DNA from: Bacteroidota bacterium
GTDB lineage: Bacteria > Bacteroidota > Bacteroidia > Chitinophagales > LD1
Reading direction: 5' to 3'
Length of the DNA: 64,000 nucleotides
Assembly: GCA_947479455.1 (NCBI GenBank)
Contig: CANJZE010000001.1
Coordinates: forward strand, 45,106 to 109,105
The number at the start of each line of letters is the position of its first letter. The first letter of the stretch is position 1. Below are positions 2,595-21,668 of this stretch, in pieces. The translations under genes and the position numbers were made by a program. Below the pieces are notes generated by a model, which was not told the origin of the DNA, made no database searches, and saw nothing but the letters and a program-made list of their open reading frames with translations.

Positions 2595-3521
2595 TTACTG
2601 CGTTCTTCCCGCCAGCAAATAAAGCGCAGCCATACGTATAGCCACACCGTTTTCTACCTGATGTAAAATGAGCGATTGCTTAGAGTCGGCCACATCGCTG
2701 TTTAATTCCACACCACGGTTAATAGGACCCGGGTGCATGATGGTAATATCTTTCTTAATAGAATCAAGTAGAGATTTGTTCACTCCGTAAAAGAGCGCAT
2801 ACTCGCGCAGTGAAGGAACAAATTTTATATCCATGCGCTCCAATTGAATTCGCAACACATTCGCCACATCGCACCATTCAAGTGCCTTCTTCAAATTGGG
2901 TTCGTAAGTTACTCCCAGTTCTTCAATATGTTTTGGAATCAAAGTAGGTGGTCCTGTTACTTTCACTTTAGCTCCCATCTTTAACATCAATGGAATATCC
3001 GAACCTGCTACTCGCGAATGTTTGATATCCCCTATAATCAAATAGTTTAAACCTTTCAGTTCACCAAATTTTTCACGAACAGAATAACCATCCAACAAAC
3101 CTTGTGTTGGGTGTTCATGTGTTCCATCTCCTGCGTTAATAATGTTAGCCGAAATATGTTGCGAAAGAAATTCTGCCGCACCCGAGCTCGAATGCCGCAT
3201 CACAATCATATCTACCTTCATGGCAAGAATATTTCTTACCGTATCTAAAAGTGTTTCTCCTTTTTTCACCGAAGACCCCGAAGCAGAAAAATTAATCGTG
3301 TCTGCGCTCAGTCTTTTCTCTGCCAGTTCAAATGAAATTCTTGTGCGGGTGCTGTCTTCAAAAAATAAATTGGCAATAGTAATGTCGCGGAGGGAAGGAA
3401 CTTTTTTTATCGGTCGTTGAAGTATCTCTTTAAAATTATCGGCTGTTTGAAAAATTAAATCAATGTCAGATTTCTGAAGACTTTTGAGAGAGATAAGGTG
3501 TTTCTGACTTAGTGCGCTCAT
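2595..3521 (-). CDS. pyrB: Aspartate carbamoyltransferase catalytic subunit
   Basis: Catalyses carbamoyl phosphate plus aspartate to N-carbamoyl-aspartate, the first committed step of de novo pyrimidine synthesis. At 308 residues it is normal for PyrB. The carbamoyl-phosphate loop FEDSTRTRISFE (about 54-65), the HEHPTQGLLD motif near 140 and the C-terminal MHPGPINRGVE are intact. No pyrI-like regulatory subunit is visible nearby. It lies downstream of pyrR on the same strand, with 116 bp between them. That gap holds two period-7 repeat tracts and a short GC hairpin, so the two genes may share a transcript with separate translation control. Confidence 0.97.
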   Translation of the reverse strand: MSALSQKHLISLKSLQKSDIDLIFQTADNFKEILQRPIKKVPSLRDITIANLFFEDSTRTRISFELAEKRLSADTINFSASGSSVKKGETLLDTVRNILAMKVDMIVMRHSSSGAAEFLSQHISANIINAGDGTHEHPTQGLLDGYSVREKFGELKGLNYLIIGDIKHSRVAGSDIPLMLKMGAKVKVTGPPTLIPKHIEELGVTYEPNLKKALEWCDVANVLRIQLERMDIKFVPSLREYALFYGVNKSLLDSIKKDITIMHPGPINRGVELNSDVADSKQSLILHQVENGVAIRMAALYLLAGRTQ

Positions 3522-3527
3522 CTGGTA

Positions 3528-3562
3528 GTGAATGGTGAATGGTGAATAGTAAATAGTAAAAT
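3528..3562. repeat. Heptanucleotide tandem repeat in the pyrB leader
   Basis: Five successive 7-base units on the plus strand: GTGAATG, GTGAATG, GTGAATA, GTAAATA, GTAAAAT. It ends 6 bases before the pyrB start codon (3521, minus strand), so a change in copy number would alter the leader but not the reading frame. Confidence 0.8.
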
Positions 3563-3592
3563 CATTCTCGTATTTCTATTGTCTTGTTTCAT

Positions 3593-3634
3593 CCCGCTTT
3601 CCTTCGCGGGAATTGTCTAATATCTGTTGTCTCT
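3593..3634. repeat. Short GC hairpin followed by a degenerate heptad tract in the pyrR-pyrB gap
   Basis: CCCGC (3593-3597) can pair with GCGGG (3606-3610). It is followed by TGTCTAA, TATCTGT, TGTCTCT (3614-3634), a period-7 series with TCT in register. There is no T-run on the pyrR side, so I do not call a terminator. Confidence 0.45.
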
Positions 3635-5049: not shown

Positions 5050-5874
5050 ATGGAAAACCTGTTAGAGAAAATAAAGGAGACCAACGAATTTCTGCGGAAG
5101 AAAATTGATGTTGCGTATAATTATGGAATCATTTTGGGTTCAGGTTTAGGAAACCTTACCAATGAAATTTCTGTGCACCATAAAATTCCGTATGCAGAGA
5201 TTCCAAATTTTCCGGTGTCGACCGTGAAAGGACATGGAGGTAGTTTGATTTTTGGTGAACTTGGTGGAAAGAATGTAGTAGCAATGAGTGGTAGGTTTCA
5301 TTTTTACGAAGGATATAGTATGAAAGAAGTTACGTTTCCTATTCGCGTGATGAAAGCTTTAGGAGTAGAGACTCTTTTAATTTCAAACGCCTCGGGCGGA
5401 ATGAATCCTAATTTTGAAGTGGGGGACTTGATGATTATTACTGACCACATGTATCTGCAACCTGAACATCCGTTGCGAGGAAAAAATTATGAAGAGTTAG
5501 GTCCGCGCTTTCCCAATATGAACAATGCTTACAACCCGGCTTTAGTAAAGAAAGCGTTGGGGATAGCGATGGCAAACGATATTCTATGTCATACCGGTGT
5601 ATATGTAGGCGTGCAGGGACCAACTTTTGAAACTCCTGCTGAATATAAGATGTTCAACATTATAGGTGGCGATGCGGTAGGCATGAGTACCACACCCGAA
5701 GTAGTGGTAGCGCGCCACGGAGGAATGGAAGTGTTTGCCATTTCTGTCATCAGCGATATCGGTTTTCCTTTTGATAAAGCCGATAAGGTGACGCACGATT
5801 TTGTTTTGCAAAAAGCTGCTGAAGCAGAACCGAAGATGACGAAGATTATCATTGAGTTGCTGAGAAGCTTGTAA
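5050..5874 (+). CDS. Purine nucleoside phosphorylase (trimeric PNP family)
   Basis: Phosphorolysis of inosine/guanosine-type nucleosides to base plus ribose-1-phosphate, in purine salvage. The 274-residue length and motifs fit the trimeric (mammalian/PunA-like) class: the phosphate loop ILGSGLGNL (about 29-37), STVKGHGGSL, MSGRFHFYEGY (about 82-92), LISNASGGMNP, and the specificity region GPTFETPAEYKMF. The codons around 5743 encode VFAISVISDIGFP; this class usually has a Thr-Asn pair near there, so the purine-selecting residue may deviate and should be modelled. Upstream TAATTTGCGC resembles a -7 box. Confidence 0.93.
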   Translation: MENLLEKIKETNEFLRKKIDVAYNYGIILGSGLGNLTNEISVHHKIPYAEIPNFPVSTVKGHGGSLIFGELGGKNVVAMSGRFHFYEGYSMKEVTFPIRVMKALGVETLLISNASGGMNPNFEVGDLMIITDHMYLQPEHPLRGKNYEELGPRFPNMNNAYNPALVKKALGIAMANDILCHTGVYVGVQGPTFETPAEYKMFNIIGGDAVGMSTTPEVVVARHGGMEVFAISVISDIGFPFDKADKVTHDFVLQKAAEAEPKMTKIIIELLRSL

Positions 5875-5920
5875 ACGAATCCATAATTTTTCTAACAAGC
5901 ATTTTAAAGAACAGGATTTA

Positions 5921-5941
5921 ATATTGAATAATGAAGATTGA
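5921..5941. repeat. Degenerate heptad repeat upstream of the porin gene
   Basis: ATATTGA, ATAATGA, AGATTGA: three imperfect 7-base units ending 19 bp before the porin ATG. A clean heptad tract lies inside the same gene at 6001. Confidence 0.5.
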
Positions 5942-5960
5942 ACAAAGACCATAGCGCATA

Positions 5961-7898
5961 ATGATTCGTCTATCCCGATGGCATCTCTTTCTCCTTCTGC
6001 AATATTCAATATTCAATATTCAATATTCAATTGCTTCTCCTGTAGATTCTATTCAGCCTTTGCTTGGCAAAAAAGGAGAACTGGTTCCTTCTACAAAAAA
6101 CGATACCTGGTACATGAATGCCGACCCTGGAAAGCATTTCATTATAGACTCTTCCATTTTTCACATCGAAGATTTTAATGTAGTACAGCGTAGCAGCGGA
6201 CGCGAATACGCGAACCTTGGCAATAGCGGAACTGCTGCTTATCCATTGGTGTTTGATATCAATCGTTCTACAGGTTTTAATTTAGGATACAATCAGTTTG
6301 ATGTTTATCGCTATCAAAAAGATTCGGTGAAATATTACCAGGTGATTAGGCCTTATGCCGAGTTGAGTATGGTGATTGGTTTAAAAAATGAACAAGTGTT
6401 TCAGGGCAATTTTGCCAATCAACATAAGGGAATTATTTTTTACGGTGTGGAGTTTAGAAGAATTTTTTCGAAAGGAATTTATACCAATCAACGTACTAAC
6501 GATAATGGATTTAATCTCTACGGCATTTTTAATTCGCGCAACAAACGATGGAATATTCAGGCAGATTTAATTTTCAATTCGTTTAAGCCGCAGGAAAATG
6601 GTGGAGTGCAAGCCAATGTTTTTGATTCATCGTTCTTTCAAAAAACATTGGTGCCGGTAAATCTAACAGCTGCTGAAAACAAATACACACAGGTAGATTT
6701 TTATTTAAAGAGTTCTTACAACGTGGGGAAAAAATATTCGATACGCGCCAATGATTCCACTACAAATAAAGTGTTGATGCCTGTGTTTCGCATTTCGCAT
6801 CAACTGAATATTGAGAGCAACAAAAACAAATTTCATGATTTAAGTCCTGATTTAAATCCTGATTACTACGGTTCGTTTTATACTATTCGCGATTCAGTAG
6901 CTAATGATTTGAATTATTTGAAAGTGGGCAACGCCTTGATGCTCGATTACTTTGCGCGTAAACTCACTTCCGATTCTACTTACAGCGAAAAGAATTTTGT
7001 GATTAGTGCCGAAGTAGGTTTCGATTATTTTATTCTTTCTCAAAATGAATTGAAAAGCAACACCACTAACTTTTATGTAAGCGGAAATATTCGTAGCAAT
7101 GGAGCAAGTGCATCGAAATTATTTTACAAAGCTTCGGCAAAATATTTTCCCTTTGGCTGGAATCAAAACGATTTGATTGCAGATGCAGTGGTGGGTTACT
7201 ACCTCGGCAAAGTTGGAATGGTATCGGGTAATTTTACTTATCAATTGAAAGAAGCGCCTTACATGTATGAACGTTACACTTCACATCCGGTGAACTGGAA
7301 TTTCGATTTACCGAAGACAAAAACAATGGCCGCGGGTTTTAAGTATCAGAACGTGCGCTATGGACTCACAGCCGATTTCAATTACTACATCGTTGACCAT
7401 TTACCTGTTTACCCGGGCTTTGCTTCGCCCTATCTAACTACAGGAATTGAAAACGCTTTTGTGGTTCATGCAGGAAACCGAAATTCATTTCACGGTTTGC
7501 ATTTAGATAATGATGTGTGGTTTACTTCAACTGCAAACGATGGACTCATTCGCAAAACGTATCCTATGCTTGTAACCAAGCACAGTATCTATTATGAGAA
7601 CCGTTTGTTCAAAAAAATGTTGTGGTTGGCTGTGGGTTTCGATTTACGTTACCGTTACAAAAACAATGCGCCTTACTACGAACCCATGCTTGGTGCGTTT
7701 TATCCTGTAACTGCTACAAACAAATCGTATCCTATTTTAGATTTCTTTCTCAACTTGAAAATAAAAACGGTTCGTGTGTTTTTAAAAGTGTCGAACATCA
7801 GTTCATCGTTCGGACCAAAAGGATACTACTCGCTTTACGGTTACCCCGCTGCCGATATTTCTTTTCAGTTTGGAATTAAGTGGAGATTTTTTGAGTAG
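5961..7898 (+). CDS. Putative outer-membrane porin (Porin_10-like beta-barrel)
   Basis: A 645-residue exported protein. A hydrophobic signal peptide (residues 1 to about 26) precedes a periplasmic N-terminal segment (DTWYMNADPGKHFIIDSS), then a barrel rich in alternating aromatic/hydrophobic strands such as PYAELSMVIGLKNEQVF and FNLYGIFNSRNKRWNIQAD, ending with the aromatic terminus IKWRFFE typical of outer-membrane barrels. The pattern matches the Bacteroidota putative porin family; the substrate is unknown. The striking feature is in the signal peptide: codons for QYSIFNIQYSI are written by four perfect AATATTC heptamers, so gain or loss of one unit would shift the frame. It is convergent with the aldo/keto reductase, 9 bp away. 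Confidence 0.82.
   Translation: MIRLSRWHLFLLLQYSIFNIQYSIASPVDSIQPLLGKKGELVPSTKNDTWYMNADPGKHFIIDSSIFHIEDFNVVQRSSGREYANLGNSGTAAYPLVFDINRSTGFNLGYNQFDVYRYQKDSVKYYQVIRPYAELSMVIGLKNEQVFQGNFANQHKGIIFYGVEFRRIFSKGIYTNQRTNDNGFNLYGIFNSRNKRWNIQADLIFNSFKPQENGGVQANVFDSSFFQKTLVPVNLTAAENKYTQVDFYLKSSYNVGKKYSIRANDSTTNKVLMPVFRISHQLNIESNKNKFHDLSPDLNPDYYGSFYTIRDSVANDLNYLKVGNALMLDYFARKLTSDSTYSEKNFVISAEVGFDYFILSQNELKSNTTNFYVSGNIRSNGASASKLFYKASAKYFPFGWNQNDLIADAVVGYYLGKVGMVSGNFTYQLKEAPYMYERYTSHPVNWNFDLPKTKTMAAGFKYQNVRYGLTADFNYYIVDHLPVYPGFASPYLTTGIENAFVVHAGNRNSFHGLHLDNDVWFTSTANDGLIRKTYPMLVTKHSIYYENRLFKKMLWLAVGFDLRYRYKNNAPYYEPMLGAFYPVTATNKSYPILDFFLNLKIKTVRVFLKVSNISSSFGPKGYYSLYGYPAADISFQFGIKWRFFE
6001..6032. repeat. AATATTC x4 heptanucleotide repeat within the porin signal peptide
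   Basis: Four exact consecutive copies of AATATTC (6001-6028) plus a partial fifth (AATT), inside codons 14-24 of the porin. The unit length is not a multiple of three. Confidence 0.95.
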
Positions 7899-20197: not shown

Positions 20198-21619
20198 TTA
20201 TCGAATCACCAACAACTTCCTTACAGCGCTTTGACCATTCAAGGAAATATGAAGCAAATAATTTCCTGCTTCTGCCTTCGATAAATCGAAAGTTGTTTTG
20301 GGTTCTGTAATTTTTGATTGCAGAATTCTTCTTCCATACATATCGAACACGGAAATTTCTACATCACTAAACTCTAATGTTTCAATCTCGAGATTAAAAA
20401 TTTGCGAAGCCGGATTTGGGAATATACGAACCGATGCCTCTGCAAAAATTTGTTCAACACCAGAAGCAGCACCACACAAATTTGTTTTAATCAAGCTATC
20501 GAAGTTGATACAGGTAGCCCAACCCGGATGATCAATAAAAGGATTGCGGTTGTGTTGAACAGAATTAATACAGGCATTTTTTGTGCGTTCGAATTTATCA
20601 GGCGGGTCTTGCTGATTCCACAACTTCAAAATATTTTGGTCTTGCTGATACGCCTGTGATAACAGTTCGTTCAATCCCCAGCCACCGCTCAAACCATCGT
20701 AACAAACCATTTCATACATCATGGCGCGGGCAGCATCTCCTTTGCGGTCAGCTCTAGGTTCAAAAACGTTATTGCCTGTATTATCAGTTCCGTATTTACA
20801 CGAGCCATAAGTCCATGACTGATTGACCACAATACCCAAAGGATTATTCGAACGTTTCACGTTGGGTACACTGCGCGATAGCAAAAGATTATAATAATCG
20901 GCACCTTCAGCATAATTGATCAGGTTATTTGCAACAAAGATTGCGGCCGTTTGCATCCAACTCTTACACAGTACGTGCTCGCGATTATAATCAGTGGCAA
21001 CAAAACCAAATGGCGGGGTATAAACTGTTGTTTCCCCACTGTATTCGCAATTGATTACCTCCTGACCTCCAATTGTGTCGCGCACATAAATACTAGGCAT
21101 CAGCAAATTTGCATAGCCCGGAGTATATGTTTGCATCGTATGGTTATTAATCAGGTAATGCAAATCGGCAATGAAACTTGCTGAAGTGGAATCAATACCT
21201 TGAAAATAATTTCCGGCATCTGCCGCTGGAGTAATAACAGAATCGGTGAGTGGATTTGACAGCAAATAATTGATGCTACCACCACTTCCGTTGTAAGCAA
21301 ATATTTTGAAATAATATTTAGTGCGTTCTACTACTTCGCGAACCTGAAAAGATGTTCCCGCATTGCTGTTCATCACCTTGCAGGTTGTAAGCCCCTGTCC
21401 CTTTTGGTAAGTAGTACCATCAACGGGAATATCAGTAATAGGATGTGTACTTTTCAAAATCAAAAAACCATCGGCAGTTGAAGGAGTAAAAGACAAAATA
21501 AAATTGTAAGGTTTCACACTATTAAAAACCAAGTTAGTTGGCTGCGATGAAGGCTGCTGAGCAATTAATAATTGATAATTGATAATTGATAATTGTAACA
21601 GCAGGAAAAATTTTTTCAT
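20198..21619 (-). CDS. T9SS-exported endonuclease I-family nuclease
   Basis: 473 residues from the ATG at 21619; the track adds 12 unlikely residues. The signal peptide MKKFFLLLQLSIINYQLLIAQ is encoded largely by a heptanucleotide repeat. Then comes an FN3-like domain (about 25-125), and an endonuclease I domain (about 150-370) with the signature DYNREHVLCKSWM, containing the His of the metal-dependent active site, and RNPFIDHPGWA. It ends in a type A T9SS sorting domain (IFPNPASQIFNLEIE ... AEAGNYLLHISLNG). It should be a secreted DNase for nutrient DNA or biofilm remodelling. Expression may be phase-variable. Confidence 0.88.
   Translation of the reverse strand: MKKFFLLLQLSIINYQLLIAQQPSSQPTNLVFNSVKPYNFILSFTPSTADGFLILKSTHPITDIPVDGTTYQKGQGLTTCKVMNSNAGTSFQVREVVERTKYYFKIFAYNGSGGSINYLLSNPLTDSVITPAADAGNYFQGIDSTSASFIADLHYLINNHTMQTYTPGYANLLMPSIYVRDTIGGQEVINCEYSGETTVYTPPFGFVATDYNREHVLCKSWMQTAAIFVANNLINYAEGADYYNLLLSRSVPNVKRSNNPLGIVVNQSWTYGSCKYGTDNTGNNVFEPRADRKGDAARAMMYEMVCYDGLSGGWGLNELLSQAYQQDQNILKLWNQQDPPDKFERTKNACINSVQHNRNPFIDHPGWATCINFDSLIKTNLCGAASGVEQIFAEASVRIFPNPASQIFNLEIETLEFSDVEISVFDMYGRRILQSKITEPKTTFDLSKAEAGNYLLHISLNGQSAVRKLLVIR
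21563..21597. repeat. AATTGAT heptanucleotide repeat within the endonuclease I signal peptide
   Basis: Plus-strand units AATTAAT, AATTGAT x3 exact, AATTGTA: five 7-base units over codons 9-20 of the minus-strand nuclease gene. The unit length is not a multiple of three. Confidence 0.95.
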
Positions 21620-21668
21620 CATAGATTGATTGGTATTCAGAAATTTGAAAAACATGTTGTTCGATATA

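Follow-up and report, generated by a model that had tools for sequence, protein, structure and literature searches.

The window, a 64,000-nt stretch of DNA, comes from a 3.76-Mb assembly in 70 contigs of an uncultured bacterium, here called G000. On its plus strand lies a gene for a Porin_10 outer-membrane barrel of 645 aa (positions 5961 to 7898; PF14121, E 1.4e-81), for which orthologs were found in relatives. It is preceded on the same strand by a purine nucleoside phosphorylase-type gene (PNP_UDP_1; 5050 to 5874), a conserved neighbor that keeps its place beside the porin in close relatives. The porins of the nearest named relatives are 94 and 93% identical to that of G000; both relatives are Bacteroidetes metagenome-assembled genomes, and one apparently came from Lake Pavin, judged by its isolate name. 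A more distant relative, with a porin 56% identical, is labelled Chitinophagales.

The porin gene carries a heptanucleotide array that begins 39 nt into its open reading frame (ORF). Tandem Repeats Finder reported (CAATATT)x4.6 on the plus strand, with an exact period-7 stretch at 6000 to 6031 (100% match, score 64), and an earlier, sequence-only reading had described four perfect AATATTC units, which are indeed present at 6001 to 6028 when the sequence is read directly. That reading also placed the array in the hydrophobic core of the signal peptide, and positions 6000 to 6031 do encode this core (...QYSIFNIQYSI...); by inspection, the predicted signal peptide spans approximately residues 1 to 26, MIRLSRWHLFLLLQYSIFNIQYSIAS. 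When the 267-kb contig was simulated three times with a Markov-3 model, no period-7 array as good as this one arose. Rfam covariance models matched nothing at the porin locus and, across the window, nothing but a tRNA, which speaks against a known conserved RNA family at the array.

As in contingency loci, the tandem repeat lies in the 5' coding region and its unit is not a multiple of three, and the product is probably surface exposed, as the Porin_10 family suggests. Frame arithmetic from ATG 5961 bore out the claim that gain or loss of one unit would break the frame: the ORF stops after 25 aa with one unit fewer and 74 aa with one more, after 67 aa with two fewer and 32 aa with two more, and is still open when three units are lost or gained. 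The same arithmetic agreed with a further claim, that an alternative ATG (5978 to 5980, plus strand) reaches the barrel frame when one unit is lost, with a product of 637 aa.

Two more heptamer arrays, both overlooked by the sequence-only reading, lie in the window. The first, (CAATTAT)x4.7 on the minus strand (21563 to 21595), is also located in a signal peptide, MMKKFFLLLQLSIINYQLLIAQQ, that of a secreted Endonuclease_1/Por_Secre_tail protein (ORF 20198 to 21655). The other is intergenic (TAGTGAA-like; 3526 to 3560) and directly upstream of an aspartate carbamoyltransferase-like (pyrB-like) gene on the minus strand (2595 to 3521; identity from the translation); this pyrB array is retained in the congener G015 and missing in the congener G004. 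A small dispersed palindromic element, TTTCATCCCGC...GCGGGA, was observed at 3587 to 3620 of the window, and also at C1:7353, C1:205438, and on contigs C2, C9, C16, and C19 of G000, in some cases adjoining heptamer arrays. Its frequency was about 14 copies in 1.06 Mb of G000, 5 in 0.4 Mb of the congener G017, and 0 in 0.4 Mb of the sister genus G018.

A genome-wide class of 7- and 8-nt arrays

The 1.06 Mb sampled from G000 contained 45 period-7 and 22 period-8 arrays, from which approximately 160 period-7 arrays are estimated for the entire genome by extrapolation. The strong excess was confined to these two periods; periods 4, 5, 10, 11, and 13 each gave only 0 or 1 array, and the remaining hits of the period scan were mostly multiples of 3 or harmonics. 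The overall autocorrelation of non-coding DNA carried a weak period-7 signal, and the excess emerged only by segment scan. Unit numbers peaked at about 4.5 to 4.6 (42 of 114 arrays at 4.5), with three units or fewer in 12 arrays.

Most loci had a motif of their own, with 29 different canonical units across the 45 period-7 arrays. The porin motif, as AATATTCx3, occurred at a single locus in G000 and was absent from its congeners; together with the diversity of units, this ruled out a binding site of one shared motif. Class- and phylum-wide motif searches recovered AATATTCx3 in 4 of 395 genomes and AAGTCCGx3 in 2 of 396; an exact motif is therefore uncommon and unevenly distributed. The only other carrier of AAGTCCGx3 among the 396 genomes sampled was G620, from another family of the same phylum, with 22 overlapping matches on contigs C13, C31, and C44; genomes rich in the AAGTCCG repeat are thus patchily distributed within the phylum.

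Under crude ORF calling, 31 of 72 arrays (43%) were intergenic, compared with 92% of the sequence being coding. About half of the coding arrays (21 of 41) were no more than 150 nt from an ORF start, and many of these lay in signal peptides or next to them; the rest fell in linkers or loops, for instance of a MazG-like protein, a leucyl-tRNA-synthetase-like enzyme, and secretion-tail domains (host identities read from sequence alone). Across the 72 arrays we saw no concentration in surface or adaptation genes such as contingency loci display, and because members of the class also lie in intergenic and housekeeping DNA, the arrays do not mark surface genes.

Several individual loci were also recorded. 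Some signal peptides are made of two heptamer arrays, one forming the basic n-region and the other the hydrophobic core (e.g., MNNKSPKSEVRSPNANIRVVAAVVYCLLSNIYSLTAQ), as observed at C2:166776-166852 of G000 (L118) and near 44751 on C2 of G017 (L148). A perfect AATTCCA array in G017 (L145; C1:313381-313412) is in frame and sits within a stretch that resembles leucyl-tRNA synthetase (GASVQFQIPNSKFQIEVFTTRPDTIFGAT). Period-8 arrays at C1:200716-200802, C1:236673-236743, and C1:9858-9930 of G000, in or beside intergenic DNA, are inverted pairs with a short spacer and resemble long hairpins.

The array class is common in the host genus and enriched there. The congener G017 had 24 period-7 arrays in 0.40 Mb, and they were also present in smaller samples of G015, G004, G010, and G009. 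No period-7 array was found in 0.40 Mb of the sister genus G018, and small samples of four other genera yielded 0, 1, 1, and 2.

Concerted change and in-frame conservation

In G000, G004, G015, G010, and G017, the porin array has exactly four units, is in frame, and keeps both its codon positions and its register. The motif reads AATATTC in G000, TATNGTC in G004 and G015 (with one deviating unit, TATAATC), [AT]AT[GT]GTC in G010, and AATTTTC in G017. In congeners further removed (G007, G009, G014, and others), the array at the porin site is partial or missing. Between G000 and G017 an identical base change is found in each of the four units; measured against randomly placed substitutions, the concerted change has P 1.4e-4 for this pair and 3e-5 for G000 and G004, and it was also detected at C1:7290 (1e-5) and at the intergenic C8:12077 (5e-6). 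The porin motif changes in every unit at once from one species to another, a case of concerted evolution.

The residues that the porin array encodes are poorly conserved between species and the DNA period is retained, which indicates that the array as such is retained or remade. Signal peptides do tolerate many hydrophobic codons, and the array could in principle be chance low-complexity coding in an AT-rich signal peptide that calls for no special process. We find this barely credible, however, since simulations yielded no such arrays, the excess is found at periods 7 and 8 only, and the keeping of the period while residues change, together with the concerted change itself, contradicts it.

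One intergenic array, C7:13244, differs by exactly one unit (-7) between G000 and G015, and the unit number is unchanged between species at the intergenic C8:12077 and, where present, at the pyrB array. Intergenic arrays too were constant in several of the comparisons, so a constant porin count alone is no proof of selection on the frame.

The sequence-only reading had taken the locus for the layout of a phase-variable surface gene and had proposed a comparison of unit counts. At the species level, this comparison gave the outcome that the reading had itself named as contrary to its proposal, with the same four units, in frame, in all five congeneric species with the array, although the named relatives are metagenome-assembled genomes whose consensus sequences may hide minority unit-count alleles. 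The 1.46 Mb sampled from G000 and G017 contained 16 genes with a heptamer array in the signal-peptide region (17 arrays), and each of them stays in frame across its array. Counts that drifted freely would put two-thirds of them out of frame, which points to slow slippage or to selection against out-of-frame alleles. A search for out-of-frame cases (a leader that runs into an array and a stop, with another frame open behind) returned two weak candidates, neither convincing: one is an array already counted in frame, and the other lies inside an apparent glycosyltransferase. The part of the proposal that stands, then, is the capacity of the array to switch frame; its use as a switch is unsupported.

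If the porin were nonetheless a contingency locus, slipped-strand gain or loss of units would toggle it in the manner of neisserial opa, with ATG 5978 as a leader-poor point of re-entry. The position of a frame-breaking 7-nt unit in the core of a surface protein's signal peptide fits this model, as do the unit turnover implied by concerted motif change, the one-unit difference at C7:13244, and the precedent of the opa leader CTCTT repeats (PMC3960869). The constancy of four units in five of five species and the 16 of 16 genes in frame do not, and arrays of the class also lie in intergenic and housekeeping DNA; at 4.6 units, moreover, the array is probably short for fast slippage. We therefore regard a contingency locus as unlikely, while the porin may still switch on rare occasions. 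The array looks like a member of a peculiar, fast-homogenizing repeat class and not like a dedicated on/off switch. A frame-shifting repeat in the signal peptide of a surface gene is insufficient to call phase variation, and the genomic repeat background needs to be checked first.

Inverted arms near arrays

Upstream of the porin, at 5916 to 5942 on the plus strand, lies a degenerate period-7 arm that matches the reverse complement of the array at 24 of 27 positions (p 0.0005; p 0.003). The upstream inverted arm was significant in three of the five species (G000, p 0.0005; G010, p 0.0005; G017, p 0.0035), and the G010 sequence is predicted to fold into a stem of approximately 20 bp (-39 kcal/mol, z -3.6). 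G004 and G015 had no significant upstream arm, and their folds (z -0.5 and -0.7) were no better than those of shuffled sequences. At p<=0.01, 14 of 78 arrays were accompanied by an inverted partner no more than 110 nt away (0.8 expected) and 2 by a direct one. Pairing between array and arm is real for a subset of arrays.

One interpretation is a translational control hairpin, in which the upstream arm and the array would base-pair in the mRNA and place the start codon within or close to the loop, putatively modulating porin translation. The significant arms in G000, G010, and G017, the stability of the G010 stem, and the preponderance of inverted over direct partners (14 versus 2) are in line with such a hairpin, which appears improbable to us nonetheless: two of the five species lack a significant arm and fold like shuffles, the majority of arrays have no partner, and the upstream arms match the arrays of other species nearly as well as their own. 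For this last reason, compensatory change between arm and array was dropped as a candidate, and a universal start-codon hairpin was ruled out as a general feature by its significance in three of five species only. Such a hairpin could be compatible with an explanation of the arrays as repeats homogenized by slippage.

Probable origin and comparison with known repeats

The observed class, with its enrichment in the genus, its unit-number peak, its concerted change, and its in-frame conservation, leads us to read the porin array, with a probability of roughly three in four, as a slippage-homogenized member of a genus-enriched 7/8-nt class, one that is tolerable as a hydrophobic core and whose reading frame selection preserves. 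The units would be homogenized as the DNA is replicated, through recurrent slippage or short-lived misalignment. A one-unit misalignment could copy a base from the adjacent unit with the length unchanged, or rounds of gain and loss could do likewise; homogenization of this kind would carry a base change to every unit and leave the length of the array almost unaltered. Where a locus has two arms, template switching from one inverted arm to the other perhaps contributes, for which there are precedents (PMC7202029, PMC8604942).

Many heptamers encode hydrophobic or flexible peptides, so that arrays are tolerated in signal peptides and linkers as well as in intergenic DNA. Coding arrays would persist where the heptamer peptide is acceptable and the frame is kept, and at the porin selection would hold the array at four units (1 modulo 3), which leaves the barrel in frame. 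We infer both slippage as the homogenizing process and selection as the cause of the constant count. Against the slippage account, array numbers would be expected to fall with length rather than to peak at 4.6 units.

Each locus is free in its motif but conserved in period, unit number, site, and reading frame. This combination argues against a sequence-specific binding protein and toward a mutational mechanism. More speculatively, and with considerable doubt, an unrecognized process in some lineages of Bacteroidota might make and maintain motif-indifferent 7/8-nt arrays of about 4.6 units, whose whole-array motif drifts in concert while period and unit number are conserved. Signal peptides, linkers, and hairpins in intergenic DNA would be rewritten continually by such a process, and genes might be silenced transiently along the way.

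Heptamers are over-represented among the longer simple repeats of many bacteria, with no accepted origin or function (PMC4692102, PMC4679880). In the literature searched, which left most subscription journals outside its scope, we found no description of motif-free, gene-embedded arrays of this kind, nor any of the class in Bacteroidota. The arrays share with previously described dispersed heptamer arrays a genome-wide period-7 excess and a typical unit number of about four, and depart from them in having no shared genome-wide motif and no near-exclusive intergenic location. The GGGAATC repeats of Xanthomonas (PMC4692102) similarly form genome-wide heptamer arrays, mostly of four units; many of them lie close together in inverted pairs, as a subset of the present arrays does, and some positions of the unit accept point changes. 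They consist, however, of one G-rich genome-wide motif with quadruplex potential and are 89 to 93% intergenic, whereas the arrays described here mostly carry a motif private to the locus, and more than half of them overlap coding DNA, especially that of signal peptides. The TAACTGA repeats of marine Beggiatoaceae and some cyanobacteria and Bacteroidetes (PMC4679880) are likewise short arrays, often near start codons, with a patchy spread. Their single fixed motif has stop codons in the forward frames, and they hence lie mostly outside genes; they were proposed to be binding sites, whereas the arrays described here offer no shared motif to bind.

Among switching repeats, the promoter heptamer repeat of Haemophilus hmw1A switches a surface gene and has 11 to 24 units (PMC8262952). 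The CTCTT repeat of Neisseria opa (PMC3960869) resembles the porin array: it is a tandem repeat whose unit is not divisible by three, and it occupies codons for the leader peptide of an outer-membrane protein. It is truly phase variable, with a switching rate near 1e-3 per cell per generation, whereas the porin count is constant in five species, and the repeat class described here, unlike opa, is not limited to surface genes. Quasipalindrome-associated template-switch mutation (e.g., PMC7202029, PMC8604942) could homogenize both inverted arms at a single locus, but most arrays here have no inverted partner. Motif freedom, coding location, and concerted drift are what set these arrays apart from known heptamer arrays.
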